A stretch of DNA of 64,000 bases from Nostoc sp. 106C (GTDB lineage: Bacteria > Cyanobacteriota > Cyanobacteriia > Cyanobacteriales > Nostocaceae), in contig NZ_MTAW01000201.1 in NCBI RefSeq assembly GCF_002154725.1, forward strand, positions 1 through 64,000. Direction: 5' to 3'. A program made the translations under genes and the position numbers. The notes beneath the pieces were generated by a model. The model was not told the origin of the DNA and ran no database searches. It saw only the letters and a list, made by a program, of their open reading frames with translations. Positions 23,031 to 37,039 of the stretch are shown one piece after another. Position 1 is the stretch's first letter; each line of letters begins with the position of its first letter.

Positions 23031-26000
23031 ATGAATCGACCTCTACAATTTGGCAAAAATAGCACATATCGCTTCTCTACAATTACCGCAACCTTGATAA
23101 TTTTGATAGTTGCGACTGTATTCGGTCAAGTAAAAATCTATAGCGCTGTAGCACAAACACCAAATACAGGTACAGTAACCCCAGCGCCAAACCGTAAGGC
23201 TGAAGCCGATAAACTTGTGGAAACAGGAACTAAGCAGCTTGATGAAAATCAATACGAAGCGGCTTTGCAATCTTTCCAACAAGCACTAGCTATTTATAAA
23301 CAAATTAAAGACCGTCAGGGAGAAGGTAAAGCATTGCAAGGTTTAGGTAGTGCTTATGTCTTCTCCGATAAGAATCAGAAAGGGATTGAATATTCTCAGC
23401 AAAGTTTAGCAGTTGCACAGGAAATCAAAGACCGTACGCTAGAAGGAAAGTCTTTAAGTATACTAGGTGTAGCTTACAAATCCTTAAAGGACTATGCCAA
23501 ATCTCTAGATTACCAACAGCAAGCACTGGTCATTGCCAGAGACATTAAAAATCGTGAACTTGAGGCAGATAGTTTACGGCGATTTGGTCATGTTTATTAT
23601 GCTCAAGAAAATTATCAAAAAGCAATTGACTACTATCAGCAAAGCTTGGTAGTTGCACAACAGATTAACAATGGTTACTTAACAGCTTCTGCTCTATCCA
23701 GCTTGGCGGATTCTTGTAACTCACTAAAAGATTACCAAAAAGCAATTAATTACTATCAGCAAACTCTAGAAATATCAAGAAAAATCAAGCGGCGTGATGG
23801 TGAATTATACGCTCTAAATACTATAGGTAATATTTACTATGATTCTCTCCATGATTACCAAAAAGCCAGTGATTACTATCAGCAAACTCTAGTAATTGCT
23901 AAAGAAATCAAAAACAGTGAATATCAATCTATAAGCCTACAAAATCTTGGTCAAGTTTACAACTATAAACTCAAAGACTACCAACAAGCGATTAATTATT
24001 ATCAACAAGCATTAGCACCTACACGAAAGATAAAAAATAAGGATCGGGAGTCCAGTATTTTATATGGCATTGGTAAAGCTTACCAGTCTTTGAAAAATCA
24101 GCCAAAAGCCCTAGAGTACATTCAGCAGAATGCCAAAATTAATTTAGAACTTAAAAAACTCAATTGTGACTCACTAGATATTTATTCTCTCGGTGCAGCT
24201 TATGAAGACTTAGAAGAATATACCAAAGCAAGTGATTATTATAATCAAGCATTAGTAATTGAGCGGAAAACTAACAAGCGTGATTGTGAGTTAAATATCC
24301 TAAAATCTCTGACTGACACTTATAATTCTCTAAAAGATTATCAAAAGGTAATTAGCACGTCACAACAAGCTTTGATAATTGCTAGAGAAATTAAAGACCG
24401 GGAAAGCGAATTTAAAATATTAGCTTATGGTTTTGGTAAGGCATATAATTCGCTACAGGAATATGCAAAAGCAATTGAATATTATCAGCAAAGTCTCGCA
24501 ATTGTGCGGAATTTAAAGAAGCGCGAGCAAGAATCTGATTTATTGAATGATATAGGTAGCATTTACCACGATTCACTTAAAGAATATCCCAAGGCAATTG
24601 AATATTTCCAGCAAGCATTAGTTATTGCTCAAGAAATTAAAAATCGACCATATCAACTCACTTCTATTAGAGGTCTTGGACTGGCTAATTATAAATTACA
24701 GAAATCTCAAAAAGCAATTGAATATTATCAGCAAGCACTTGCCATTGCCCAAGAACTTAAAGACTGGGAAAAAGAAACAAAACTACTAATAAATTTAGGC
24801 GAGGCTTTTAGCGATATTAAAAACGAACCTCAAGCAATTACCTATTATCAGCAAGCTATCAAAGTGGCAAGGGAGAGCAAAGACCGAGATTTAGAACAGC
24901 GTACCCTAACGCAAGTGGGAACGAGTTATTTGTTACAGGGAAATTTACCCCAAAGCATTGAATACTATCAGCAAGCCCTAGTCATAACACGGGAAACTAA
25001 AAATCGCGATGACGAGGGGAAGATTTTAATGCTTTTAGGAATTGATTACAACTACATGGGTAACTTGCCAAAGGGATTTGAGCTACTTCAACAAGCGTTA
25101 TCCATTACCAAAGGAACTGAATTTGAAAGTGGTGTTTTGGTCAATATTGCTGTTATTTACATGGCACAGGGAGATTATCTCAAAGCCATTGACTTGAGTC
25201 AGCAATCCTTAGCAATTGCCAGAGGCGAAAATCCTTCAAAAAATGGTCAGCATATCAAAGACCATGATACAGAAGGGCTAGCATTAATTATTTTAGGTGG
25301 TGCTTACTCTGCTGGGCAAAATGATGATCAAAAAGCTATTGAGTTGCTACAACAAGGCTTGACTATTGCGCGGGAAAGTAAAAACCGTTTTTTAGAATCG
25401 ATGGCTTTGAGTTATTTAAGTATTGCTTATGTAGATCTCAAGGAATATCCCAAAGCAATTGATTTTGCCAAACAAGGTTTAGCTATTGCTCAAGAAATCA
25501 AAAATCCAATAGCAGAATTAATATCTTTACCTTCACTAGGTATTATTTACGGGAATTTGGGAGACTATCCACAGGCAATTTCTTTCAATCAAGAAACTTT
25601 GAAAATTGCTCGCAAAACGCAAAATCATGTAATGGAAGGTATTACACTGCTATCGTTAGGCGGCATTTATGATGACCAAGGAAATACCCAAAAAGCAATG
25701 GAAGTGGCGCAGCAAGCAGCAGCAGCATTTGAGGAAAGTAAAAGTCCTGTGTTCAAAGCTGTGGCGCTAATGAGTTTGAGCGGTGGTTATGAAAGGTTAC
25801 AAGACTATCCAAAAGCTATTGCTACAAGCCAAGAAGCATTGACTATTGTGAGGAAGCTAAAAGACCGATCGCTAGAGTCTAATGCTTTAGGCAATTTAGG
25901 TTATATTTACCGCAAATCGGGACAATTTCAACAGGCGATATCCTTCTATGAAGAAGCATTGAAAACAGATCCGACTCCAAATATTCCAGGGAGTGGTGCT

Positions 26001-27650
26001 GGTGCTTATACAGGTTTAGCTCGTGCTTATCGCAGTTTAAATCAGCCACAGAAGGCTATTGAATATTACCAAAAAGCTGTTCGTGGAATAGAGCAAGTGC
26101 GGCAAAAAATTCAAGGTTTACCTCCACAGTTGCAAACATCATTCCTACAAGCTGGTCGCAAAGGAGAAACTAGGGCAGATATTTATCGCGAGTTGGGTGA
26201 TTTATTACTTGCTCAAGGTAAGATAGCCGAGGCACAGCAGGTATTAGATTTGCTGAAACTGCAAGAGGTGAAAGATTTTCTGCGTATTAGCCAAAGAACT
26301 AGGTCACTAGAACGACCAACTGACCCCAATACTAACGCCATCCTTGATAAAGCAGTAGCATTGGGTAAGGAATTAGACACACTCGAAAAAATTCAACCTA
26401 CTAAAAGAACAAGTAGCCAACAACAGCGAATTGTAGAATTGCGGAAATCTCAAACAGATATTCGCAAACAGTTTGGTGAATTTCTCAAAGACCCAGAAGT
26501 AGAGAAACTTGTGGCAGAGTTACAACAAAGTACTGGGGGAGAAAATATTAATTTAGAAACGCAAGTAAAAACTCTCCAAGATAATCTTCAGCGACTTAAG
26601 CAAGATGCAGTAATTCTCTATCCGTTGGTTCTTAAAGATCGTCTGGAATTGGTGTTAGCTACTCCCTACGGGCCTCCTATTCACCGCACAGTTGCGGTGA
26701 CTGAGGAACAACTGAATAGTACCATCGAAAAATATCGCCGTGATCTAAAAAGTCCAATTAGCAATGCTAAAGTTTCTGGCGGTCAACTCTATGAATGGCT
26801 AATTAAACCTATAGAAAAAGACTTGTCTGAAGCCAAAACCAAAACCATTATTTACGCTCCCGATGGTAAACTGCGTTATATTCCGTTAGCCGCTTTATAT
26901 GATGGTAAACAATGGTTAGTACAACGCTTCCGCATCAATAATATTACTGCTCTGAGCTTGACAAATTTCACCACTAAACCACAGCCACAATTGCAAATTT
27001 TAGCAGCGGCATTTGCTAATTCTCAACGTAATGTCGATATCAAAGTTGGCAACAAAGATTTCAAATTTCAAGGGCTACAATTTGCAGGTCGTGAGGTGGA
27101 AGGAATAGCAGCCACAATTCGGGATACTAAAAAAGTAGTTGATGAGCAATTCAACCCAGATATTGTTTACTCAATGAATGATTACAACGTTGTACATTTG
27201 GCAACTCATGCTGCTTTTGTTGCTGGCCAACCAGAAGATTCTTTCATTGTTTTTGGTAATGGCAAATATGCGACTCTAGGGGATGTCCAAAACTGGAATT
27301 TACCCCACGTAGACTTATTTGTATTGAGTGCTTGCGAAACTGGCTTGGGTGATAAATTAGGCGACGGTAAAGAGATTTTGGGCTTTGGTTACCAAATTCA
27401 AAGAACAGGAGCAAGAGCTGCGATCGCCAGTTTATGGTCTGTTGATGATGGCGGTACGCAAAGTTTAATGAATACTTTTTATAGCGCACTAAAAAAACCG
27501 AACACGACGAAGGCTGAAGCCCTGCAAGCAGCACAAATAGCATTAATTACTGGGAATTATGAGGCTTTAGGTAAACAGCAAGATGGAGGAGATCACCTCA
27601 GCCACCCCTACTATTGGGCACCGTTCATTCTCATTGGTAATGGATTATGA
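23031..27650 (+). CDS. Giant TPR-CHAT protein (caspase-like peptidase)
   Basis: This 1539-residue protein has an N-terminal hydrophobic segment (about 17-41, ending YSAVAQT) that may be a signal peptide. About two dozen TPR units of roughly 40 residues follow, from about 55 to 1065, built on the YQQALxIAxExKxxxxE pattern. A helical linker (1065-1210) precedes a CHAT domain (about 1215-1537). The catalytic dyad of clan CD peptidases is intact: His1393 in HLATHAAF and Cys1435 in LSACETGLGD. CHAT peptidases fused to TPRs are activated by partner recognition in some type III-E CRISPR and cell-death systems. Here no effector or CRISPR gene is adjacent. The substrate and whether it is exported are unknown. 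Confidence 0.92.
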   Translation: MNRPLQFGKNSTYRFSTITATLIILIVATVFGQVKIYSAVAQTPNTGTVTPAPNRKAEADKLVETGTKQLDENQYEAALQSFQQALAIYKQIKDRQGEGKALQGLGSAYVFSDKNQKGIEYSQQSLAVAQEIKDRTLEGKSLSILGVAYKSLKDYAKSLDYQQQALVIARDIKNRELEADSLRRFGHVYYAQENYQKAIDYYQQSLVVAQQINNGYLTASALSSLADSCNSLKDYQKAINYYQQTLEISRKIKRRDGELYALNTIGNIYYDSLHDYQKASDYYQQTLVIAKEIKNSEYQSISLQNLGQVYNYKLKDYQQAINYYQQALAPTRKIKNKDRESSILYGIGKAYQSLKNQPKALEYIQQNAKINLELKKLNCDSLDIYSLGAAYEDLEEYTKASDYYNQALVIERKTNKRDCELNILKSLTDTYNSLKDYQKVISTSQQALIIAREIKDRESEFKILAYGFGKAYNSLQEYAKAIEYYQQSLAIVRNLKKREQESDLLNDIGSIYHDSLKEYPKAIEYFQQALVIAQEIKNRPYQLTSIRGLGLANYKLQKSQKAIEYYQQALAIAQELKDWEKETKLLINLGEAFSDIKNEPQAITYYQQAIKVARESKDRDLEQRTLTQVGTSYLLQGNLPQSIEYYQQALVITRETKNRDDEGKILMLLGIDYNYMGNLPKGFELLQQALSITKGTEFESGVLVNIAVIYMAQGDYLKAIDLSQQSLAIARGENPSKNGQHIKDHDTEGLALIILGGAYSAGQNDDQKAIELLQQGLTIARESKNRFLESMALSYLSIAYVDLKEYPKAIDFAKQGLAIAQEIKNPIAELISLPSLGIIYGNLGDYPQAISFNQETLKIARKTQNHVMEGITLLSLGGIYDDQGNTQKAMEVAQQAAAAFEESKSPVFKAVALMSLSGGYERLQDYPKAIATSQEALTIVRKLKDRSLESNALGNLGYIYRKSGQFQQAISFYEEALKTDPTPNIPGSGAGAYTGLARAYRSLNQPQKAIEYYQKAVRGIEQVRQKIQGLPPQLQTSFLQAGRKGETRADIYRELGDLLLAQGKIAEAQQVLDLLKLQEVKDFLRISQRTRSLERPTDPNTNAILDKAVALGKELDTLEKIQPTKRTSSQQQRIVELRKSQTDIRKQFGEFLKDPEVEKLVAELQQSTGGENINLETQVKTLQDNLQRLKQDAVILYPLVLKDRLELVLATPYGPPIHRTVAVTEEQLNSTIEKYRRDLKSPISNAKVSGGQLYEWLIKPIEKDLSEAKTKTIIYAPDGKLRYIPLAALYDGKQWLVQRFRINNITALSLTNFTTKPQPQLQILAAAFANSQRNVDIKVGNKDFKFQGLQFAGREVEGIAATIRDTKKVVDEQFNPDIVYSMNDYNVVHLATHAAFVAGQPEDSFIVFGNGKYATLGDVQNWNLPHVDLFVLSACETGLGDKLGDGKEILGFGYQIQRTGARAAIASLWSVDDGGTQSLMNTFYSALKKPNTTKAEALQAAQIALITGNYEALGKQQDGGDHLSHPYYWAPFILIGNGL

Positions 27651-27724: not shown

Positions 27725-28399
27725 TCAAGAATGATTGAGGATTGGCGATCGCCTTTGTGCTGCTAGTGCGATCGCCTGGGGCAAAATTTGATGTTCCTGA
27801 AGTTGAATCCGCGCATGGAGGGTTTGGGCTGTGTCATCTGGAAGGACTGGTACTGCCGCTTGCATTAATATTGGGCCGCTATCTACTTCTAAGCAAACTA
27901 GATGCACCGTACAGCCAGCAATTTTTACACCAGAGGCTAAGGCTTGTTCTACTGCATGGATACCTTTAAAACTAGGCAACAAGCTGGGATGGACATTAAT
28001 AATTCTGTCAGCAAAGGCATCAATTAATACTGGCGTTAATAGCCGCATCCAGCCTGCCAAAATCACCCATTCCACATCGTACTGTCGTAAAGTTTGTACA
28101 AGTTGCTCATCAAACTTTTCCCGGCTTTTGTAATCGCGGTGATTCAGCAATACCGCTTCTACACCCCTGTTTGCAGCCCGAACAGCAGCCTTAACCCCAG
28201 GGTTGTTATAAATTAAAACTTGAATTTGAGCATTTAGTTCCCTTTGTTCAATAGCTTGGGCAACAGCCTCAAAATTACTGCCATTTCCAGAAGCGAGAAT
28301 CCCTAATTTTAAGGGAGTGGTAGATGCCAATTGGTTACTAGAAATCTTGGGAGAAATCAAACTACTAGTAGCAGTAACCGTAATAGGATTATTACTCAT
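27725..28399 (-). CDS. purN: Phosphoribosylglycinamide formyltransferase
   Basis: This enzyme transfers formyl from 10-formyl-THF to GAR, the third step of purine synthesis. The 224-residue protein has LGILASGNGSNFEA, which binds phosphate, AGWMRLLTP, and the catalytic Asn/His in INVHPSLLPSFKG. The folate-side Asp is in VDSGPILMQAAVPV. About 28 residues precede the usual PurN start (LKLGIL), an extension rich in Ser and Thr of unknown role. Its ATG overlaps the stop of the upstream proline-rich protein gene (28396-28399), so the two are cotranscribed. Confidence 0.95.
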   Translation of the reverse strand: MSNNPITVTATSSLISPKISSNQLASTTPLKLGILASGNGSNFEAVAQAIEQRELNAQIQVLIYNNPGVKAAVRAANRGVEAVLLNHRDYKSREKFDEQLVQTLRQYDVEWVILAGWMRLLTPVLIDAFADRIINVHPSLLPSFKGIHAVEQALASGVKIAGCTVHLVCLEVDSGPILMQAAVPVLPDDTAQTLHARIQLQEHQILPQAIALAAQRRSPILNHS

Positions 28400-29019
28400 A
28401 AGCGAAGGTCGATAATTTTGACATTCTCCGGTAATTTCGTGTTCTCGGAAACTTTTGTGAGTAGGGCTGCTGTGGGAGAGAAAGCTGTAGGTCTGGGTTG
28501 TCCTGGGTCGGTGTTATCTAATTGCAGTCGCAGCTGACCATCAGGAGTAAATTCAAAAATTGTTAGTGCTTGTTTTTGCTCAGCGGAAACTGTGATATCC
28601 AAATGCATTGGTTGTGGTGTTGGGTTAATGCTGTACTTAAATTCCACAGCCATCGGCTTTTGCGGATTGGGCGAGAGAATATATAATTTACCATCCGGCG
28701 AGAAAATAAAAGTGAGTGCAACATTCGATGAAGGGTCTTTACTTTGCCATTGCCCTAATAATTTCTGGGAAATTGGGTTTGTCGGCTGATTTGTTGGCGA
28801 TGGCGTTGTGATTGGTGCTTTTGTTGGCTGATTTGTGGACGATGGCGTTGGGATTGGTGCTTTTGTCGGCTGATTTGTTGGCGGTGTTGGGATTGGTGCT
28901 TTTGTTGGTTGAGCCAGCACAGCTGTATCGAGTGTCATCGATAATGCTATAAGTACGCTAGAGGTCAGCATGGTGCTGGCGATGAAAAATTTGCCAAAGA
29001 AGGGGAAAATTTTAGGCAT
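28396..29019 (-). CDS. Exported protein with Pro/Thr-rich tandem repeats
   Basis: Start at ATG 29019 (MPKIFPFFGKFFIASTMLTSSVLIAL) gives a signal-peptide-like N-terminus with possible cleavage after AVLA; the frame is open to 29073. Then come about four imperfect repeats of TNQPTKAPIPTPSP (roughly residues 48-90). A C-terminal domain of about 110 residues starts LLGQWQSKDPSSNVALTFIFSPDGKLYIL and looks like a beta-rich lipocalin-type fold. It is the first gene of a two-gene unit with purN and overlaps it by four bases. Function unknown. Confidence 0.7.
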   Translation of the reverse strand: MPKIFPFFGKFFIASTMLTSSVLIALSMTLDTAVLAQPTKAPIPTPPTNQPTKAPIPTPSSTNQPTKAPITTPSPTNQPTNPISQKLLGQWQSKDPSSNVALTFIFSPDGKLYILSPNPQKPMAVEFKYSINPTPQPMHLDITVSAEQKQALTIFEFTPDGQLRLQLDNTDPGQPRPTAFSPTAALLTKVSENTKLPENVKIIDLRL

Positions 29020-29085
29020 TTGTTTGAGCCAATAGAATGAAAGGATCTTAGCAGTACCTCTGCGTAGAATCACACTCTACCGCAT

Positions 29086-29991
29086 TTGATAGCCAAAATA
29101 GCTATGAAACCATCCCGTTCTTCTGACATGCAACTGCTGGATAATGATACAGTTGCCGCCTGGATTTTTCTGACACCAGCATTGATTTTACTGGGTCTGT
29201 TTATCATTTGGCCGATCGCCTATTTGTTTTATCTGAGTTTTACCGCTGGTAGTTTTACTTCAAAAGGCACTTACCTAGTAGGCTTAAAAAATTACTGGCG
29301 GTTGTTATTCAATTCCGATTTTTGGCAAGTTTTAGGTAACACCGTTTATTTTACCGTTGCCACTGTCATTCCCAGTTTAGTTATTCCCTTAGGGTTGGCA
29401 GTACTATTAAACCGTTCTGTACCTGGACAAGGCACAATGCGAAGTGCCTACTTTCTGCCTTCAATTATTTCTCTTGTCGCCGCAGGGTTAGGATTTCGCT
29501 GGTTATTTCAAACCGCTGGCCCGGTAAACGCATTTTTAAATATATTTGGCATCCCATCAATTCCTTGGTTAGGAGACACATTTTGGGCTATGCCAGTACT
29601 AATTTTAGTAAGTATTTGGAAACAACTCGGTTTTAATATGGTGGTGTTCTTAGCAGGATTGCAAGCAATTCCCCCCAGTCGTTACGAAGCTGCGGAACTG
29701 GATGGTGCAAATGGTTGGCAACAATTTTGGCATATCACCCTCCCTGGATTGCAACCGACTTTAATATTTGCGATTGTCACCACTGCGATTTTTACCTTGC
29801 GGAGTTTTGAGCAAGTTTATGTAATTACAGGTGGTGGGCCGTTAAATTCCACAAATTTGCTGGTTTATTACATTTACCAAGAAGCCTTTGGTCAATTTGA
29901 TTTTGGTTATGCAGCCGCAGCCGCGACAGTATTACTAGCAGTAACCCTAGTGTTTGTGTATTTGCAATTACGAACTTGGGGTGAGGAATGA
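29086..29991 (+). CDS. Sugar ABC transporter permease (MalF/UgpA type)
   Basis: The 301-residue inner-membrane protein has six hydrophobic helices and the EAA loop YEAAELDGANGWQQFWHITLPGL, which contacts the ATPase. The opening LTPALILLGLFIIWPIAYLFYLSF is typical of carbohydrate uptake (CUT1) permeases. No second permease or ATPase follows; instead a tandem repeat array starts 39 bp after the stop. A CUT1-type binding protein gene lies 14 kb away (43918-45252) and might be its partner, which is inference. The start may be ATG 29086 or 29104. Confidence 0.9.
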   Translation: MIAKIAMKPSRSSDMQLLDNDTVAAWIFLTPALILLGLFIIWPIAYLFYLSFTAGSFTSKGTYLVGLKNYWRLLFNSDFWQVLGNTVYFTVATVIPSLVIPLGLAVLLNRSVPGQGTMRSAYFLPSIISLVAAGLGFRWLFQTAGPVNAFLNIFGIPSIPWLGDTFWAMPVLILVSIWKQLGFNMVVFLAGLQAIPPSRYEAAELDGANGWQQFWHITLPGLQPTLIFAIVTTAIFTLRSFEQVYVITGGGPLNSTNLLVYYIYQEAFGQFDFGYAAAAATVLLAVTLVFVYLQLRTWGEE

Positions 29992-30030
29992 TGATGGCAG
30001 ATGGCAGGAGGCAGAAGGTTAAACTGAACG

Positions 30031-30261
30031 GAGTCTTTGATACTCGGCGATGAGTCTTTGATACTCGCGGACGAATCTTTAATACTCGCGGACGAGTCTT
30101 TAATACTCGTGAATGAGTCTTTGATACTCGTGAATGAGTCTTTGATACTCGGCGATGAGTCTTTGATACTCGGCGACGAGTCTTTGATACTCGTGAATGA
30201 GTCTTTGATACTCGCTAACGAGTCTTTGATACTCGCCGATGAGTCTTTAATACTCGTGAAT
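30031..30261. repeat. Tandem array of eleven 21-bp units
   Basis: Eleven units of exactly 21 bp follow one another. Each has a 15-bp core GAGTCTTTGATACTC, with an occasional G to A change, then a 6-bp variable part of the form G-N-N-N-A-C/T (GGCGAT, GCGGAC, GTGAAT, GGCGAC, GCTAAC, GCCGAT). The core ends GAGT and ACTC are complementary, as are ACTC and the next GAGT, so hairpins can form in two registers. The 21-bp period keeps both strands free of stops. It lies behind the ABC permease gene. Confidence 0.93.
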
Positions 30262-30290
30262 GAGAAAATAGACACAGCAAAGTATACATG

Positions 30291-30353
30291 GTAGGGGCAC
30301 GGCATCCAAAATTTTTCTACAAGCTGATAATATTAATGATGCCGTGCCCCTAC
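30291..30353. repeat. Palindromic repeat with GTAGGGGCACGGCATC arms
   Basis: A perfect 16-bp inverted repeat (30291-30306 with 30338-30353) encloses an AT-rich 31-bp loop. The same family appears with one mismatch at 61873-61930, and a related GGGCACAGGGCATA hairpin is at 2772-2812. No ORF is present. Confidence 0.75.
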
Positions 30354-30450
30354 TACGATAATTTTCCTTAACTGAACCGTATTGAAACCAGACTCATAGC
30401 ATTTCAGTTTAATAATGATACAAATACACGGCTAAGGGTTTAGCAATGCT

Positions 30451-30690
30451 CATACGTGTCAACTTAACGTGAAACCCTTGTTAAAACGTGATTTTGTATT
30501 CACTCACCTACCATTACAATCCTCGTCACCCCACCCCAGTTTTGTCTAAAGCCAAAACTTCCCCTCCCCGCAGGCGGAGAGAAGTTGCGTGCGGGGGTTC
30601 CCCCCCGTTGAGCAAACTTCGGGGGAGGGGATTAAGGGGAGGGGTAAAACGTATGTGGGATAAGCGTTTGAGCTTAAGTTGACACCAATG
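30451..30690 (+). repeat. 240-bp MITE-like element, copy 1
   Basis: The ends CATACGTGTCAACTTAA and TTAAGTTGACACCAATG are 17-bp imperfect terminal inverted repeats (three mismatches). The element is flanked by a perfect 9-bp direct repeat AGCAATGCT (30442-30450, 30691-30699), as expected for a target duplication. The interior is C/G-rich with CCCCTCCCCG-type blocks and no convincing gene. A nearly identical copy in inverted orientation is at 35156-35394. The region 30354-30441 has no feature. Confidence 0.85.
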
Positions 30691-30753
30691 AGCAATGCTA
30701 AACCCCTACGAAAAATCTATATTTACAGCAGTTTACATATTCATGGAATACGC

Positions 30754-30781
30754 GTAGAGACGTTACATATAACGTCTCTAC
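30754..30781. repeat. GTAGAGACGTTA hairpin
   Basis: GTAGAGACGTTA (30754-30765) and TAACGTCTCTAC (30770-30781) form a perfect 12-bp stem with loop CATA. The word is typical of short dispersed palindromes in Nostoc-type genomes. It lies 43 bp after the stop of the minus-strand gene at 30824 and may act as its terminator, although no T-run follows. Confidence 0.65.
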
Positions 30782-30823
30782 ATTGATTGTTGGAGATGTC
30801 CAATCAACAAATCAACATCTAGC

Positions 30824-31300
30824 CTAAGAACCAGAAGCAACCTTAACAGGTTTATTTTTCATTGCTTTAAAGCGTTCACCCAACTGTTCAGCAATAGTTT
30901 TCAAACCTGGAGTCTTTTTAGCCGCAGTCTTCACATAATCATAAACCGTCAAACTGCTGCTCATCGCTTCGCTACCGACCGCCAATAAAGTATCATCAAC
31001 TTGTTCTGTGACTTGGCGCAGTCCGGTTAACAATTCCGTCAGTGTTGCAGCTAATTGATAATCTCGCGTAAACTCCTCTACATCAAAACTGGCTGGGAGA
31101 ATATCGCGGTTAGTCTGAGCAGCAGTCAGACTATTATTGACAAAAGCCAAGCTTTTATCGCCCATTTTAAATAACTTACGTCGTTCTTCCACACTTAGAG
31201 TAACCAGAAACGGCAGCTTTTTTTGAATTGTTTGCAACGCTGCTTTGATTTCTTGGATATCTTCTGGCGTAAGGGAGGCGGTAATATTTTGATATGGCAT
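30824..31300 (-). CDS. Hypothetical protein, 158 aa, helical
   Basis: The protein is predicted from composition to be mostly helical: LTPEDIQEIKAALQTIQKKLPFLVTLSVEERRKLFKMGDKSLAFV, then a region with RDYQLAATLTELLTGLRQVTEQVDDTL. It ends in a basic tail (RFKAMKNKPVKVASGS). There is no signal peptide or membrane span. I do not recognise the family; the LSVEERRKLFKMGDKS block recurs in bacterial proteins of unknown role. It lies inside the segment bracketed by the two inverted MITEs, 154 bp beyond hicB on the same strand. Confidence 0.65.
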   Translation of the reverse strand: MPYQNITASLTPEDIQEIKAALQTIQKKLPFLVTLSVEERRKLFKMGDKSLAFVNNSLTAAQTNRDILPASFDVEEFTRDYQLAATLTELLTGLRQVTEQVDDTLLAVGSEAMSSSLTVYDYVKTAAKKTPGLKTIAEQLGERFKAMKNKPVKVASGS

Positions 31301-31454
31301 GGGAGAATTACCCTGATGATTTAACTCTCTCTAGGATTCCCAGCGATAAATGCGATCGCACATCTTACAACCAATCAGTCACAATAAATCGCAAAATTCC
31401 TCAATCTTCCCTTCCTCTCTGCGCCTCCGCGCCTCTGCGTGAGGATAAAAATCT

Positions 31455-31679
31455 TTAAGCTACCTGCAATGGCTGTCCGAGAGTTTTTGGTTCCGGGAGA
31501 GGTTCACCAAGTTCCAAGGCTTTTTCAATTAACATCTCTAGTACCTCTTGGGCATTCTTCAGCGCTTCTTCGTAAGTATCTCCGTGAGTACAAGGCTGCA
31601 TGACATTGGTAAACTCAGGCAACAGCACAACATAACATTGGTCTTCATCTGACCATTGAATAATAATTGTATATTTCAT
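31455..31679 (-). CDS. hicB: HicB-family antitoxin
   Basis: The 74-residue protein has the partial RNase H-like fold of HicB: MKYTIIIQWSDEDQCYVVLLPEF, then THGDTYEEALKNAQEVLEMLIEKALELGEPLPEP. It lacks the C-terminal HTH or RHH DNA-binding domain of larger HicB proteins. HicB neutralises the HicA RNase. Its ATG overlaps the hicA stop by four bases. It comes last in the NACHT-hicA-hicB row. Confidence 0.88.
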   Translation of the reverse strand: MKYTIIIQWSDEDQCYVVLLPEFTNVMQPCTHGDTYEEALKNAQEVLEMLIEKALELGEPLPEPKTLGQPLQVA

Positions 31680-31870
31680 TCTTCTGTTTCCTCTGGTTCT
31701 ACTTCTATAGTCTTGAGTTGTTCCAGCGCTTCATTAACTTGTTTTTCTAGATAAGGCTTGGCATCACTACCATCTTTGCCAGCGATGATAATAGCTTGAG
31801 GTAATTGTGGATGTATCCATTTACTATGGCTACCTTTTGCTGGTTTATAGGCAAACCCTGCTTGCAGCAA
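31676..31870 (-). CDS. hicA: HicA-family toxin, start codon apparently lost
   Basis: The 64-residue frame has the HicA dsRBD-like core: LLQAGFAYKPAKGSHSKWIHPQLP with the catalytic His in GSHSKW. In-frame codons before the TTG at 31870 still read PKKIRELKSL, the normal HicA start, but no ATG, GTG or TTG precedes them. The codons there are TAT CCC AAG, and one inserted base (ATG CCC AAG, near 31900) would restore the usual MPKKIREL. So either the toxin starts at the internal TTG and lacks its first helix, or it is silenced. The would-be ATG lies about 10 bases after the NACHT stop. Confidence 0.75.
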   Translation of the reverse strand: MLQAGFAYKPAKGSHSKWIHPQLPQAIIIAGKDGSDAKPYLEKQVNEALEQLKTIEVEPEETEE

Positions 31871-31911
31871 TAAGCTTTTTAATTCTCTAATTTTCTTGGG
31901 ATAACCTCAGC

Positions 31912-34830
31912 TTACATTCTGGCTCCCCACTTCCTCAATTTATTCTGAGCGAACTCTCGCAGTTTCTCATCTGGGTCATTCTCTGCTCTGTCAAGCAAAA
32001 GTGGTAAAGTTTGGGGATGCTGAGGAAATTGCTCAATAATGAACGCAAGTGCAACACGCCGAGGATTTAGCCAGTAGCTTGGATGCTTGAAAGAGTCTGT
32101 GACAGTACAATCATGCAAAAATTCAAATATTCCAGGTTCATCTTTCCAATCTTGAGCTAGACATACTATTGCTAATCTTCGTACTGGCCAAGCTTTATCA
32201 AAACGAGCGCAGACCTTGAGAATTGAAAAAGTATCAGGATCGTGTTTCCCAATACTAGCTAATTCTAGTATTGCGCTTCGTCGCACACGCATATCGCTAT
32301 CCTGTTGAATACAGATTTTAAGAATAGACAAAGTATCAGAGTCTCTTATCCGTTTCCTAGCTAGTGCTTGTATTGCTGCTATTCGCATATGAACATCATC
32401 TGATTGAGCATATATCTTTAGCATTGGTAAATTATTAGCATCAATTGCTAATTCTGTGACTAACTCATCTATAAATGCCTGAGCTACAGCCCAATAGCGA
32501 GTACAATCAAGGACATTTTTAAGGTAAGGTAGTGTTTCTGGATGACTTTTCCAAGTAGTTGCAATTGCCGAAACTGCTTGAGCGCAAACTTGACTAATTA
32601 ACTCAAACTCTTCTGTATTTGTAGGTTCTTTGCCAGTTTCATACTGCGTTAAGTTTTTGAGGTAGTTTAAGAGTCTATTATCAGTTGCAGAGATTGCATT
32701 CCTATTTCTGACTTCTGCTAAACACTTAGCCGCTAAAAATAGGTTGACAAACTTCTGTGGTTCTCCATCTTGTGCCATTAAGTGCTCAAGAATTTCACCA
32801 ACAAATTTTGGCTCAATCATTCCGGCAATTAGCAGCAAAACCTCATGCCAAGTTTCATCTTGCCAGTGTTTGCCAAAAACTTCAGTTGTTAAATACTCAA
32901 TTGTAATACTGCGTTCTTTCTCAAACTGCCAGACAAACTCCCAAGCACAGAAATATTCCAAAAATGTTCTATGCACAAAAGCATAGTAATCTGCACCCAA
33001 GAAACATAACATAAAGTTGCGAGTCCGCAGTTGATTAATCATCACCCTCGCAGCTTCTCTGGCTTGGCTGACTTCTATAGTTTTGAGATAGTCAGTCAAA
33101 ATTTTAACTAAATCATCTTCTTTAATTAAATTACCTGCTAAACCTTTGTCGCCAGTTTGCATATAATAAGCAACCTGACGCAGCATCGCTTGCTTATCTT
33201 TATAATCAATAGTTTTAGGATCTATTCTTTTATCTTCCACCAAAGCACATTCTACATCCCATTGATGCAACAGTACCCGCGATGCTTGGTTATAAAGTTC
33301 GGCCCTATCTCTTGGCAATTCCTGATTACGATTGAGAATCGCCATCATCGTTAACAATAGGGGATTCCCCGCTAGTTCTGTAATAGCTTTGGAAGTTTCA
33401 ATTCCTTTTTGCAATCGTTCGCGTTTCCTAACTTTATCTGCTGTATCGCTAAAAGTTAACTCATGCCAACGGTAAATAAAATCCTGAATTTGTGATGAGT
33501 CTAAATCTTGCAACATAAAGTGATGAAATTGAGCATCCCTTAATCGTTGCGGTTTATAGCCAATCACGCGAGAAGTGACAATCACCTGCACATTAGGATA
33601 TTCATTGGTGAAGCGATGAATAGCTGTAATAATATCCTCACGTTTACCAGGGTCAAATACTTCATCCAAACCATCAAACATCACCAAAGCGTTACCAGAC
33701 TTTAGCTGTGCTTGTAATTGATGCTGATTGAGGTGAGAAATTGCACCGGGACTTTGATGAAAGAACTCTAAAAAATTCTTGCAATGTCCGTCATCAGAAT
33801 TTCGCATATAAGCGCGTAGTTCAATTAGCAAGGGAATTGGTGGTAAAACAAATCCCGCTTTATCGAGTTGATCGATAGTTTTTTCTACCCAATCTAGCGC
33901 TAGGTATTGCAATAACGTAGACTTACCCGCACCAGGATCGCCTAAGATGACTATGTATTTATAAGTTTGGGGCTGATTGACAATATCTAATACTGAATGT
34001 ATCGGCTGTTCAAAATAAACTCGTTTATATTTTTCTAATTCTTCTAAAGCAACTTCTTCTGCTTCTACTTGGTCAGTTTCTCGCAGTCGCCGCAGATGTT
34101 CTTTAGGTAGTTCGTGGATTTGGGGTAAAACTTGGTGAACTTCTCGCACATTTTGCGCGATAAATATTCCCCATAATCTCAGTTCGTTATAGGCGTAACC
34201 GCTGGTATCTAAACTATCTAATTTTAAATTGACATAGCGCTCGCGAATTGCTTCTTGATATTGCCGCAAGTCAAATTCTGGTTTAATCTCGCCTCTACCT
34301 TGATTATCTTTGCTAATATCATCGAGCTTCTGGAGAATTAAAATATCGCGTAAATCTTTTGATTCAGCTAAAATTTGTTGGCATTTTCTCAGATAATTAT
34401 CAGTCACTAATTGCCAGCTAAATCTAGCTGGTAAAGCAGGGAAATTCAGACTCTTCCAAATTTCTTCCAGAGTTTGATAATCCAGCTCATCACAATCTGG
34501 ATCAAAAGCTTTACCGAGTATTTCTTTAACCGACTTGTGGTAGATAAATTTTTTGAGTGGTTTCTGGAATTTCTTGATGTCTTCCTCAGAAGCCTTGCGA
34601 AACTTTAACTCATCTTCTAGCAGTTGCAAAAATTCCTTGAGTGCTTTAGCAATAGCTTTGTGAATAGGTTCTTTCTTAAATAGGTCAGGAACGTTGTTAA
34701 AACGGTCTTTAAAAAAATCTTTGGCGTAGTCCTTAGCTAAATCATTGGCAAATTCTGAGGTAAGAATATTTTTGACCAGAAATCCCACAGCATTGGTTGC
34801 TACCCAGCCAACTAGCCATTCCACTATCAT
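31912..34830 (-). CDS. NACHT-HEAT STAND NTPase
   Basis: The 972-residue protein has an N-terminal helical domain (about 1-200) that starts with a hydrophobic stretch (VEWLVGWVATNAVGFLV). The NACHT NTPase follows, with Walker A GDPGAGKST (297-305), Walker B LVMFDGLDE (382-390) and sensor IVTSR (417-421). Then come the winged-helix/arm region (FVHRTFLEYFCAWEF) and C-terminal HEAT-like repeats (about 800-970; RIAAIQALARKRI, RRSAILELASIG, RRLAIVCLAQDW). Bacterial NACHT proteins include phage-sensing defence NLR-like proteins, where the repeat end senses and the N-terminal domain is the effector. The effector type here is not recognised. hicA and hicB follow at once on the same strand. Confidence 0.9.
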   Translation of the reverse strand: MIVEWLVGWVATNAVGFLVKNILTSEFANDLAKDYAKDFFKDRFNNVPDLFKKEPIHKAIAKALKEFLQLLEDELKFRKASEEDIKKFQKPLKKFIYHKSVKEILGKAFDPDCDELDYQTLEEIWKSLNFPALPARFSWQLVTDNYLRKCQQILAESKDLRDILILQKLDDISKDNQGRGEIKPEFDLRQYQEAIRERYVNLKLDSLDTSGYAYNELRLWGIFIAQNVREVHQVLPQIHELPKEHLRRLRETDQVEAEEVALEELEKYKRVYFEQPIHSVLDIVNQPQTYKYIVILGDPGAGKSTLLQYLALDWVEKTIDQLDKAGFVLPPIPLLIELRAYMRNSDDGHCKNFLEFFHQSPGAISHLNQHQLQAQLKSGNALVMFDGLDEVFDPGKREDIITAIHRFTNEYPNVQVIVTSRVIGYKPQRLRDAQFHHFMLQDLDSSQIQDFIYRWHELTFSDTADKVRKRERLQKGIETSKAITELAGNPLLLTMMAILNRNQELPRDRAELYNQASRVLLHQWDVECALVEDKRIDPKTIDYKDKQAMLRQVAYYMQTGDKGLAGNLIKEDDLVKILTDYLKTIEVSQAREAARVMINQLRTRNFMLCFLGADYYAFVHRTFLEYFCAWEFVWQFEKERSITIEYLTTEVFGKHWQDETWHEVLLLIAGMIEPKFVGEILEHLMAQDGEPQKFVNLFLAAKCLAEVRNRNAISATDNRLLNYLKNLTQYETGKEPTNTEEFELISQVCAQAVSAIATTWKSHPETLPYLKNVLDCTRYWAVAQAFIDELVTELAIDANNLPMLKIYAQSDDVHMRIAAIQALARKRIRDSDTLSILKICIQQDSDMRVRRSAILELASIGKHDPDTFSILKVCARFDKAWPVRRLAIVCLAQDWKDEPGIFEFLHDCTVTDSFKHPSYWLNPRRVALAFIIEQFPQHPQTLPLLLDRAENDPDEKLREFAQNKLRKWGARM

Positions 34831-34973
34831 ACTCGCGCCTGCTTCAGCTTTTGACTACGAGTATATACACCAGCATCAGTAATTTTCCCAGATTTCCGAG
34901 ATATTAAAGAAAGTAGTTTTGTAATAGTCAACATATCGTGCTGACCTTCATCCCGCCCAGAACTGAAGTTCCG

Positions 34974-35048
34974 GGCTAATAGCGCAAGTCCACTCAAGTG
35001 GACTGAAATATGCAGCTAGTCTACTTCAGTAGACTTTAGCTATTAGCC
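34974..35048. repeat. Y-shaped repeat: outer stem with two sister hairpins
   Basis: GGCTAATAGC (34974-34983) pairs with GCTATTAGCC (35039-35048). Inside lie AGTCCACTCAAGTGGACT (34987-35004) and AGTCTACTTCAGTAGACT (35018-35035). The two hairpins differ by C to T in one arm and G to A in the matching position of the other, so pairing is kept. This is a dispersed-repeat type without ORF, upstream of the NACHT gene and beside the second MITE copy. Sequence 34831-34973 shows nothing else. Confidence 0.7.
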
Positions 35049-35155
35049 TTGGAATTGATTCTAAGGCGAGATGACAACGAAGCGGGAGTATTTTGTGGTG
35101 AGTGGTCAGGCACATCATCAATTAATAACAGCATTGCTGTGCCCTTTGCAATGCT

Positions 35156-35394
35156 CATTGGTGTCAACTTAAGCTCAACGCTTATCCCACATACGTTTTA
35201 CCCCACCCCTTAATCCCCTCCCCCGAAGTTTGCTCAACGGGGGGGAACCCCCGCACGCAACTTCTCTCCGCAGGCGGGGAGGGGAAGTTTTGGCTTTAGA
35301 CAAAACTGGGGTGGGGTGACGAGGATCGTAATGGTAGGTGAGTGAATACAAAATCACCTTATAACAAGGGTTTCACGTTAAGTTGACACGTATG
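35156..35394 (-). repeat. 239-bp MITE-like element, copy 2 (inverted)
   Basis: This is the reverse complement of copy 1 (30451-30690), with only a handful of differences: a few substitutions, a three-base change in the CAGGCGG block and a one-base indel in GCGTTTGAG. Its ends are CATTGGTGTCAACTTAA and TTAAGTTGACACGTATG. The 9-bp flanks match in 7 of 9 (TGCAATGCT, AGCATTGCT). A 15-bp direct repeat AGCATTGCTGTGCCC also lies at 35130-35144 and 35395-35409. A 60-codon ORF inside is not a gene. Confidence 0.85.
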
Positions 35395-35449
35395 AGCATT
35401 GCTGTGCCCCTACCCCTACAATTTAGGAAATTTATTTTTTGTTACCCGC

Positions 35450-37039
35450 TTAACTAACTACCGCCTCTGCCTTTTCCTTCACAGGTGGCACATAAGGTTT
35501 TTCTGCACCTTGGGCGAGATATTCGGCTAGCTGACTTTCAATTTGATCGCGCACAATTTGGCGATATTCGAGAAAATGCTCATTGTGGGCACAAGCTGAA
35601 AGGTAATGCTCGGCAACTCCTGGGTTATGCTTGATGATGCTAAATAAGTGATGCCAGAATTTCCAGCGGGTTTCGCGTTTGATGCCTTGTCGCCAGATGA
35701 CAATTAATAGCGCTTTAATTACTATCAACTCTGGCCATTTAAATGGCGCTTTCCACGTTGGCGCACCCATCATTAAAAAGCAGCGGTAGGTGCGATCTAA
35801 ATACTTCACTGGATCGTATAAGGCACAAAATGCTTCAATGTATTCTCTGGCAATATCTTCCAAGGGACGGGTAGCAACAAAGTTCATCAAGGTTGTCTGG
35901 TTGATGTTACCGTCTTTGTTTTCCCGTAATCTCCCTTCTTTTTTCAGGCGATGCCACAGGGCTGTGTTGGGTAGCGCTTGCAACATGGCAAAGGTAGTGG
36001 AAGGAATTGCAGCTTGTTCAGCAAACCGGACAATGCGATCGCCTGCACCTGCTTTTTCGCCATCAAACCCGATAATAAATCCAGCCATTGGGCGTAATCC
36101 AGCTTTGATGATGGTTTGCACAGCGTCGGTGAGGGAACTGCGGGTATTTTGAAATTTCTTCGTCATTTGCAAGCTATCTTCATCTGGGGTTTCAATCCCC
36201 AAAAATACCGCCGCAAAACCAGATTCAACCATCAACTCCATCAATTCTGGATCTTGTGCTAAATCAATTGAAGCTTCAGTATCAAAGCGGAAGGGATATT
36301 GATGTTCTTGCATCCAAACTTTTAACTCTTTCAGCAACAATTTCACATTGCGTTTGTTGCCAATAAAGTTGTCATCAACCATGAACACACCCCGCCGCCA
36401 ACCCAATTCATAAAGATAATCCAACTCTGCTAATAGTTGGGCTGGGGTTTTGGTGCGTGGTTTGCGACCGTAGAGAACAATGATGTCACAGAATTCGCAT
36501 TGAAAAGGACAACCCCGCGAAAATTGCACGGACATCATATCGTAGGCATCAAATTCTAATAAATCAAAGCGGGGTACTGGTGTGCTTGTGACATCTGGTT
36601 TTTCACTCGTGCGGAAAGTACCAGATGTATCACCCCGTTGAATCGCCTCAACGAACATAGGTAAGGTGATTTCCCCTTCATCCAAAATCAGGAAATCTGC
36701 GCCCACGTTTTGCACATCATGGGGTGTAGAGGTGGGGTAGGGGCCGCCCACAGCGACTAACTTACCACGCCGCTTGGCTTCTTGGATTTGGTCTAGTAAG
36801 TCCTGTTTCTGGACAATCATGGCGGAGAAAATAACTACATCAGCCCAAGCCCATTCTTCCTCGGTAACTGGACGGATGTTGCGATCGACTAGTTTATATT
36901 CCCATTCTTGAGGCAAAATTGCCGCCACTGTCACTAAACCCAAAGGTGGTAACAAAACCTTGCGATCGACTAACGCCAAAATTTTTTCGTAAGACCAAAA
37001 GGTTTTTGGAAATATTGGATACACCAGTAGGACTCGCAT
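35450..37039 (-). CDS. B12-binding radical SAM protein with DUF4070
   Basis: The 529-residue protein has an N-terminal cobalamin-binding Rossmann-like part (about 1-150; LLPPLGLVTVAAIL, VAVGGPYPTSTPHDV). The radical SAM core has the cluster motif RGCPFQCEFCDII (C-x3-C-x2-C, about residues 180-190), GGRGVF-like VFMVDDNFIGNK and FLGIETPDEDSL. A C-terminal DUF4070 segment follows. Family members methylate unreactive carbons; HpnP, the hopanoid C-2 methylase, has the same architecture, but many cyanobacterial paralogues exist and the substrate here is open. It stands alone next to MITE copy 2. Confidence 0.88.
   Translation of the reverse strand: MRVLLVYPIFPKTFWSYEKILALVDRKVLLPPLGLVTVAAILPQEWEYKLVDRNIRPVTEEEWAWADVVIFSAMIVQKQDLLDQIQEAKRRGKLVAVGGPYPTSTPHDVQNVGADFLILDEGEITLPMFVEAIQRGDTSGTFRTSEKPDVTSTPVPRFDLLEFDAYDMMSVQFSRGCPFQCEFCDIIVLYGRKPRTKTPAQLLAELDYLYELGWRRGVFMVDDNFIGNKRNVKLLLKELKVWMQEHQYPFRFDTEASIDLAQDPELMELMVESGFAAVFLGIETPDEDSLQMTKKFQNTRSSLTDAVQTIIKAGLRPMAGFIIGFDGEKAGAGDRIVRFAEQAAIPSTTFAMLQALPNTALWHRLKKEGRLRENKDGNINQTTLMNFVATRPLEDIAREYIEAFCALYDPVKYLDRTYRCFLMMGAPTWKAPFKWPELIVIKALLIVIWRQGIKRETRWKFWHHLFSIIKHNPGVAEHYLSACAHNEHFLEYRQIVRDQIESQLAEYLAQGAEKPYVPPVKEKAEAVVS

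Follow-up and report, generated by a model that had tools for sequence, protein, structure and literature searches.

Two short repeats of almost the same sequence lie in opposite orientation in the window (the whole 64,000-nucleotide stretch of Nostoc sp. 106C DNA analysed here), and an earlier note, made from the sequence alone, had described them as MITEs of 240 and 239 bp bracketing a NACHT-HEAT NTPase gene, hicA, hicB and a hypothetical gene. Both elements and all four genes were found (Table 1), followed by a radical SAM gene, which served as the anchor for comparisons with relatives.

Table 1. Features of the two elements and of the region between and beside them
Feature	Position in window	Strand	Remarks
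Left target copy of left MITE	30442..30450	.	9 bp, AGCAATGCT; single copy in G006
Left MITE	30451..30690	+	240 bp
Right target copy of left MITE	30691..30699	.	9 bp, AGCAATGCT
158-aa gene	30824..31300	-	no Pfam match; same place in G006
hicB antitoxin-like gene	31455..31679	-	PF15919
Replaceable block, approximate edges	31464..35106	.	here hicAB and NACHT; TPR-CHAT in G006; nothing comparable in G058
hicA toxin-like gene	31676..31870	-	PF07927; usual start codon absent (by-eye comparison, five homologs)
NACHT NTPase gene	31912..34830	-	972 aa, with NNH2 and HEAT domains
Older intergenic flank, inner side of right MITE	35107..35129	.	first 19 bases identical in G058
8-bp inverted arms, 10-bp spacer	35130..35155	.	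spacer in the opposite orientation in G058 and G006
Right MITE	35156..35394	-	239 bp
Outer target copy of right MITE	35395..35403	.	AGCATTGCT
Radical SAM gene	35450..37039	-	anchor for comparing relatives

Structure of the elements and the genes between them

The two elements form an inverted repeat of 239 nt (95% in ungapped register) and differ in seven aligned columns, with 97% identity in a search of the own genome with the left copy. Their ends read CATNNGTGTCAACTTAA, that is 17 bp with two variable positions, and the window contains exactly four occurrences of the 11-mer TGTCAACTTAA, each at one of the two MITEs. The ends do carry the CAT proposed earlier; the spacing given with it was wrong, as three bases and not four separate CAT from TGTCAACTTAA. 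The perfect 9-bp repeat claimed for one element is present on both sides of the left MITE, and the right MITE is flanked by TGCAATGCT and AGCATTGCT, which are alike at 7 of 9 bases. Both elements are short, bounded by terminal inverted repeats and non-coding, with only short ORFs of 60–64 aa. RNA folding was strong for both (z −5.8 and −7.3), as expected from any long inverted repeat, and no claim is made from it. A promoter or terminator role for the right MITE was considered and dropped, with no promoter-like site in 34800–35450 (1.0 expected) and two terminator-like sites (0.8 expected).

A defence function may be suspected for the genes between the MITEs. The NACHT protein gave weak partial matches only with PADLOC (best E 3.3e-05) and, in NCBIfam, a partial match to the antiphage NACHT protein EruA (43.8 bits, far below the cut-off of 1000); no full-length match to a known anti-phage system model was obtained with either. 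A literature search on NACHT with hicA in cyanobacteria, judged by title, returned nothing related. The hicA start codon seen by eye in four of five homologs is absent from window 31855–31935, and also from L086.

Scanning of genome contigs revealed 55 loci with relatives of the NACHT protein. In at least 17 of these hicB follows within 1 kb, and in at least seven (L084, L086, L100, L111, L119, L121 and L125) the 158-aa gene comes next on the same strand, both counts being lower bounds because of contig ends. The end-motif 12-mer was found at two of the 55 loci, with a single occurrence in L080 and, in L111, one pair located past the 158-aa gene; none was bracketed by it on both sides. The same genes and flanks in genomes without the elements had been named in the earlier note as evidence against its reading; the gene order NACHT-hicB-158-aa was indeed seen at seven loci without bracketing, a result that concerns gene order and not identical outer flanks. 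In L084, L100, L111 and L125 these genes are followed by matches to the 21-bp repeat arranged in tandem at window 30035–30264. The NACHT gene itself is approximately 91% identical in DNA to G002, G003 and G004, where a related gene sits at another place, and this identity stops near window 32704; the C-terminal repeat part has diverged, with more repeats in G004 and G006. A second stretch of the own genome (G000:C156:68166-70370) is 79% identical to the NACHT gene. To the left of the locus, window 23031–27650 encodes a large TPR protein whose end looks CHAT-like by eye.

An abundant MITE family and an IS4-family element with the same ends

The own genome (8.66 Mb in 240 contigs) was searched with the left copy, and 40 of the 111 first-look candidates were scored, so that copy numbers are lower bounds: at least 47 matching stretches, among them at least 17 full-length copies (239–240 bp) and at least five shorter ones of 193–194 bp, the remainder being partial. 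With up to one mismatch, the end motif was found 116 times (63 + 53) in the own genome and not once in the reversed control, and the repeats are thus far above chance. Of 58 genomes, the own genome among them, 24 contained the exact motif, including all eight examined genomes of the genus; the reversed control gave nothing across the 58, save for one match in one motif-free genome. Among 21 own-genome copies scored, 12 had target copies identical at 9/9 bases and 18 at 8/9 or more. Terminal repeats, copy number and target duplications all support the designation as MITEs. Three copies elsewhere have exactly the sequence of the right MITE, and four others are one change away from the left MITE, whereas the two differ from each other by seven. 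The pair thus come from different sublineages, and the proposal of recent movement holds.

A full-length IS with the same ends, which the earlier note had suggested looking for, was found in a same-genus relative (G007), where an IS4-family element is delimited by end-motif pairs spaced approximately 1.4 kb. One copy (L238), 1454 bp long, carries CATTGGTGTCAACTTAA at both ends and encodes 453 aa in an uninterrupted frame; its transposase scored 206.3 bits against NF033592 (cut-off 115), with a DDE_Tnp_1 match and no match in PDB at E 0.01. The open frame has just 359 residues in three 1413-bp copies of this genome, and in L236 it is split in two. The MITEs thus share their ends with an autonomous IS. 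Target duplications were 9/9 in all four G007 copies and 8/9 in the single copy from G080; duplications of 9 bp fit the IS4 family. The own assembly of 240 contigs yielded no intact copy of such a transposase; it has matching IS ends at the contig ends of C43 and C69, and a 48-residue transposase remnant beside an end motif inside contig C185.

An ISAs1-family element (L056, 1375 bp, G000:C34:27121-28495) was considered as the parent and rejected despite the same outer ends, since it is nested in a 195-bp MITE known from uninterrupted copies; the ISAs1 part has ends of its own and a broken frame (two TAG, one TAA). CGTAGTATA flanks the broken element on both sides, the host MITE being of the same end type.

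Empty sites in relatives and the origin of the pair

The radical SAM gene is present in 115 of 118 genomes (own included), and the loci beside it were compared in 20 relatives. Sequence from the left side was kept in four of these (L162, L168, L179 and L180), of which only that of G006, a member of the same genus, is close. In G006, window 27745–30450 joins 30691–31463 directly, the two overlapping by the 9-bp target only, and the site of the left MITE is thus empty, with a single target copy between the same flanks. Beyond the equivalent of 31463, G006 has a TPR-CHAT gene in place of hicAB-NACHT and then rejoins the window at 35395; this gene (at locus L162) differs from the TPR gene at window 23031–27650. 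In G058, from another genus of the same family, a 19-mer equal to window 35107–35125 is followed by a palindrome and then by the radical SAM gene, with neither MITE nor cargo at the locus. Among all loci compared, this 19-mer was confined to this place in the window genome and in G058. Directly before the palindrome G006 and G058 have TTGCAAAGGGCAC in common, a stretch which the window carries reversed between 8-bp arms. The right MITE site is likewise empty in both relatives. Nothing matching 31464–35106 was found beside the radical SAM gene in any of the 20 loci. The comparison of relatives with and without the elements, as proposed earlier, yielded an empty site for each element, and the whole block was not recovered at this locus in the 20. 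One of them (L167, G004) has the exact end motif, approximately 280 bp away from the radical SAM junction; the motif lies near a contig end there, with 98 bp left to the end of the locus.

The pair is very probably the result of independent insertions of one abundant MITE family, presumably mobilised by an IS4-type transposase in trans, with hicAB-NACHT not carried by the MITEs and the pairing due to chance. The transposase of the IS4-family element of the same genus, whose ends match, would move the MITEs, generating a 9-bp target duplication and favouring the axis of host palindromic repeats. The left MITE would have landed between the 21-bp repeat array and the 158-aa gene, and the right one next to the radical SAM gene. 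The block that they flank is replaceable, and the inverted order and closeness of the two MITEs would be fortuitous. That the MITEs did not carry this block follows from the position of its edges, which lie inside both MITEs. Against this reading stand the imperfect target copies of the right MITE, the failure to find an intact IS4 transposase in the own assembly, its fragmentation into 240 contigs (although relatives back both joins), the 29 of 57 insertion sites without a palindrome score (see below) and the fact that the close empty site on the left comes from G006 alone, G058 being of another genus.

The earlier note had suggested that the pair could act as a passive composite transposon. 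In this reading the IS4 transposase would use the two outer ends and move the 4.9-kb hicAB-NACHT segment. The ends are indeed correct and in inverted order, an IS with the same ends exists within the genus, no hicAB-NACHT was found next to the radical SAM gene of the 20 relatives compared, and the two outer 9-mers are alike at 8/9. However, the edges of the cargo do not coincide with the elements: older flanking sequence lies inward of both (773 bp at the left MITE, about 49 bp at the right one), each MITE has its empty site in a relative, and the two belong to different sublineages. The outer 9-mers correspond to the common target anyway, and the outer palindrome arms do not match; those of the left copy pair with each other and not with the far outer flank. 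Nor is the closeness of the two copies above chance. The 88 exact motifs of the own genome represent 62 elements or single ends, among which three neighbour gaps of 4.8 kb or less were seen against 2.1 expected under random placement; this pair is one of the three, and two of the three involve single ends. The proposal fails at this locus and we regard it as highly improbable, although an IS with matching ends does exist and could in principle move a segment bounded by MITEs.

An equally improbable alternative is an inversion switch, in which the inverted MITEs, 240 bp long and 97% identical, could recombine and flip 30691–35155, perhaps in some cells only, altering gene expression. Yet the comparable inner parts, 30691–31463 and 35107–35125, are both in ancestral orientation with no trace of inversion, and the lack of promoter-like sites noted above also speaks against it. 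Misplacement of either MITE by assembly error is the least credible: in an assembly of 240 contigs with many MITE ends at contig ends joins could err, and copies L023 and L024 have unlike flanks, but both joins here are backed by relatives, in which the flanks of each MITE adjoin without it.

Palindromic targets and comparison with known systems

For target preference 57 insertion sites were scored: 21 copies from the own genome for which both flanks were available (L008 and partial copies having been dropped), 31 pairs from G001, G002 and G007, chosen among the matches listed and not comprising all copies, and five full IS. At least 8 of 10 complementary base pairs around the target centre were found at 25 of the 57 sites, compared with 0.06% of window positions; with a movable centre the figures were 28 of 57 and 0.4%, leaving 29 sites that did not score as palindromes. 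Target copies were alike at 8/9 bases or more at 41 sites, and the flanks of the left MITE make up a complete palindrome (10/10 pairs). REP-like palindromes, at their axis, are thus a favoured target of the IS and its MITEs, in line with what has been published on ISRm22. This is a preference and not a rule, as perfect 9-bp duplications also occur in non-palindromic DNA (e.g. L005, L007 and L016). The ends, duplications and target sites are observed, and the action of the IS4 transposase on the MITEs in trans is inferred.

At six of the 57 sites (L003, L010, L012, L021, L240 and L242) the central base of the palindrome is the sole difference between the two target copies, one having A and the other T; a C/G exchange was not encountered among the sites scored. 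Similar reversals are CCGC(AG or CT)GCGG within the MITE and window 35130–35155. In 25.5 kb aligned between C129 and G006:C259, five of eight substitutions at palindrome centres (arms of at least 4) were complementary, compared with 261 of 1502 over the whole alignment; the five amount to four events, since two of them are one event, and two of the four are MITE sites. The excess is too small to claim. It is conceivable, though we think it unlikely, that the IS4-type transposase attacks the axis of the REP palindrome in a strand-symmetric form (e.g. extruded), so that target copies can emerge reverse-complementary, with A/T at the centre. To our knowledge, this outcome has not been described for IS4 elements.

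An attractive but mistaken example of a defence unit carried by MITEs is thereby eliminated, and the comparison shows that claims of this type are settled by empty sites in relatives. The IS with its open transposase frame, the numerous MITEs and the defined palindromic targets also make up a clean set with which the choice of REP palindromes by IS4-type transposases in cyanobacteria could be studied. No published account of this MITE family was found among the papers listed for the end motif (unrelated, judged by title), for MITEs with IS4 in Nostoc, for MITEs in Anabaena, for IS with REP targets or for Nezha.

The closest parallel is ISRm22 of Sinorhizobium meliloti, also of the IS4 family, with nine copies in REP elements, inserted at the palindrome axis (PMC1525189). 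It comes from another phylum and uses another REP, and the parts of that report available to us mention no MITE derivatives. Many of the present targets have the form GTAGGGG...CCCCTAC, palindromic and repeated, and resemble in this the GTAG-type REPs of filamentous cyanobacteria as outlined in PMC3733652, a likeness rather than a family assignment. Nezha, as cited in PMC3733652 and PMC3049150, is another cyanobacterial MITE for which movement by an IS, in that case ISNpu3-like elements, has been proposed; the likeness is one of description. In the related genus, Anabaena sp. 90 has 147 complete or partial MITEs of 77–541 bp and IS4-group IS in its genome (PMC3542288). According to the portion of that account consulted, those MITEs are without similarity to the IS ends of their genome, whereas the MITEs described here share theirs with an IS.
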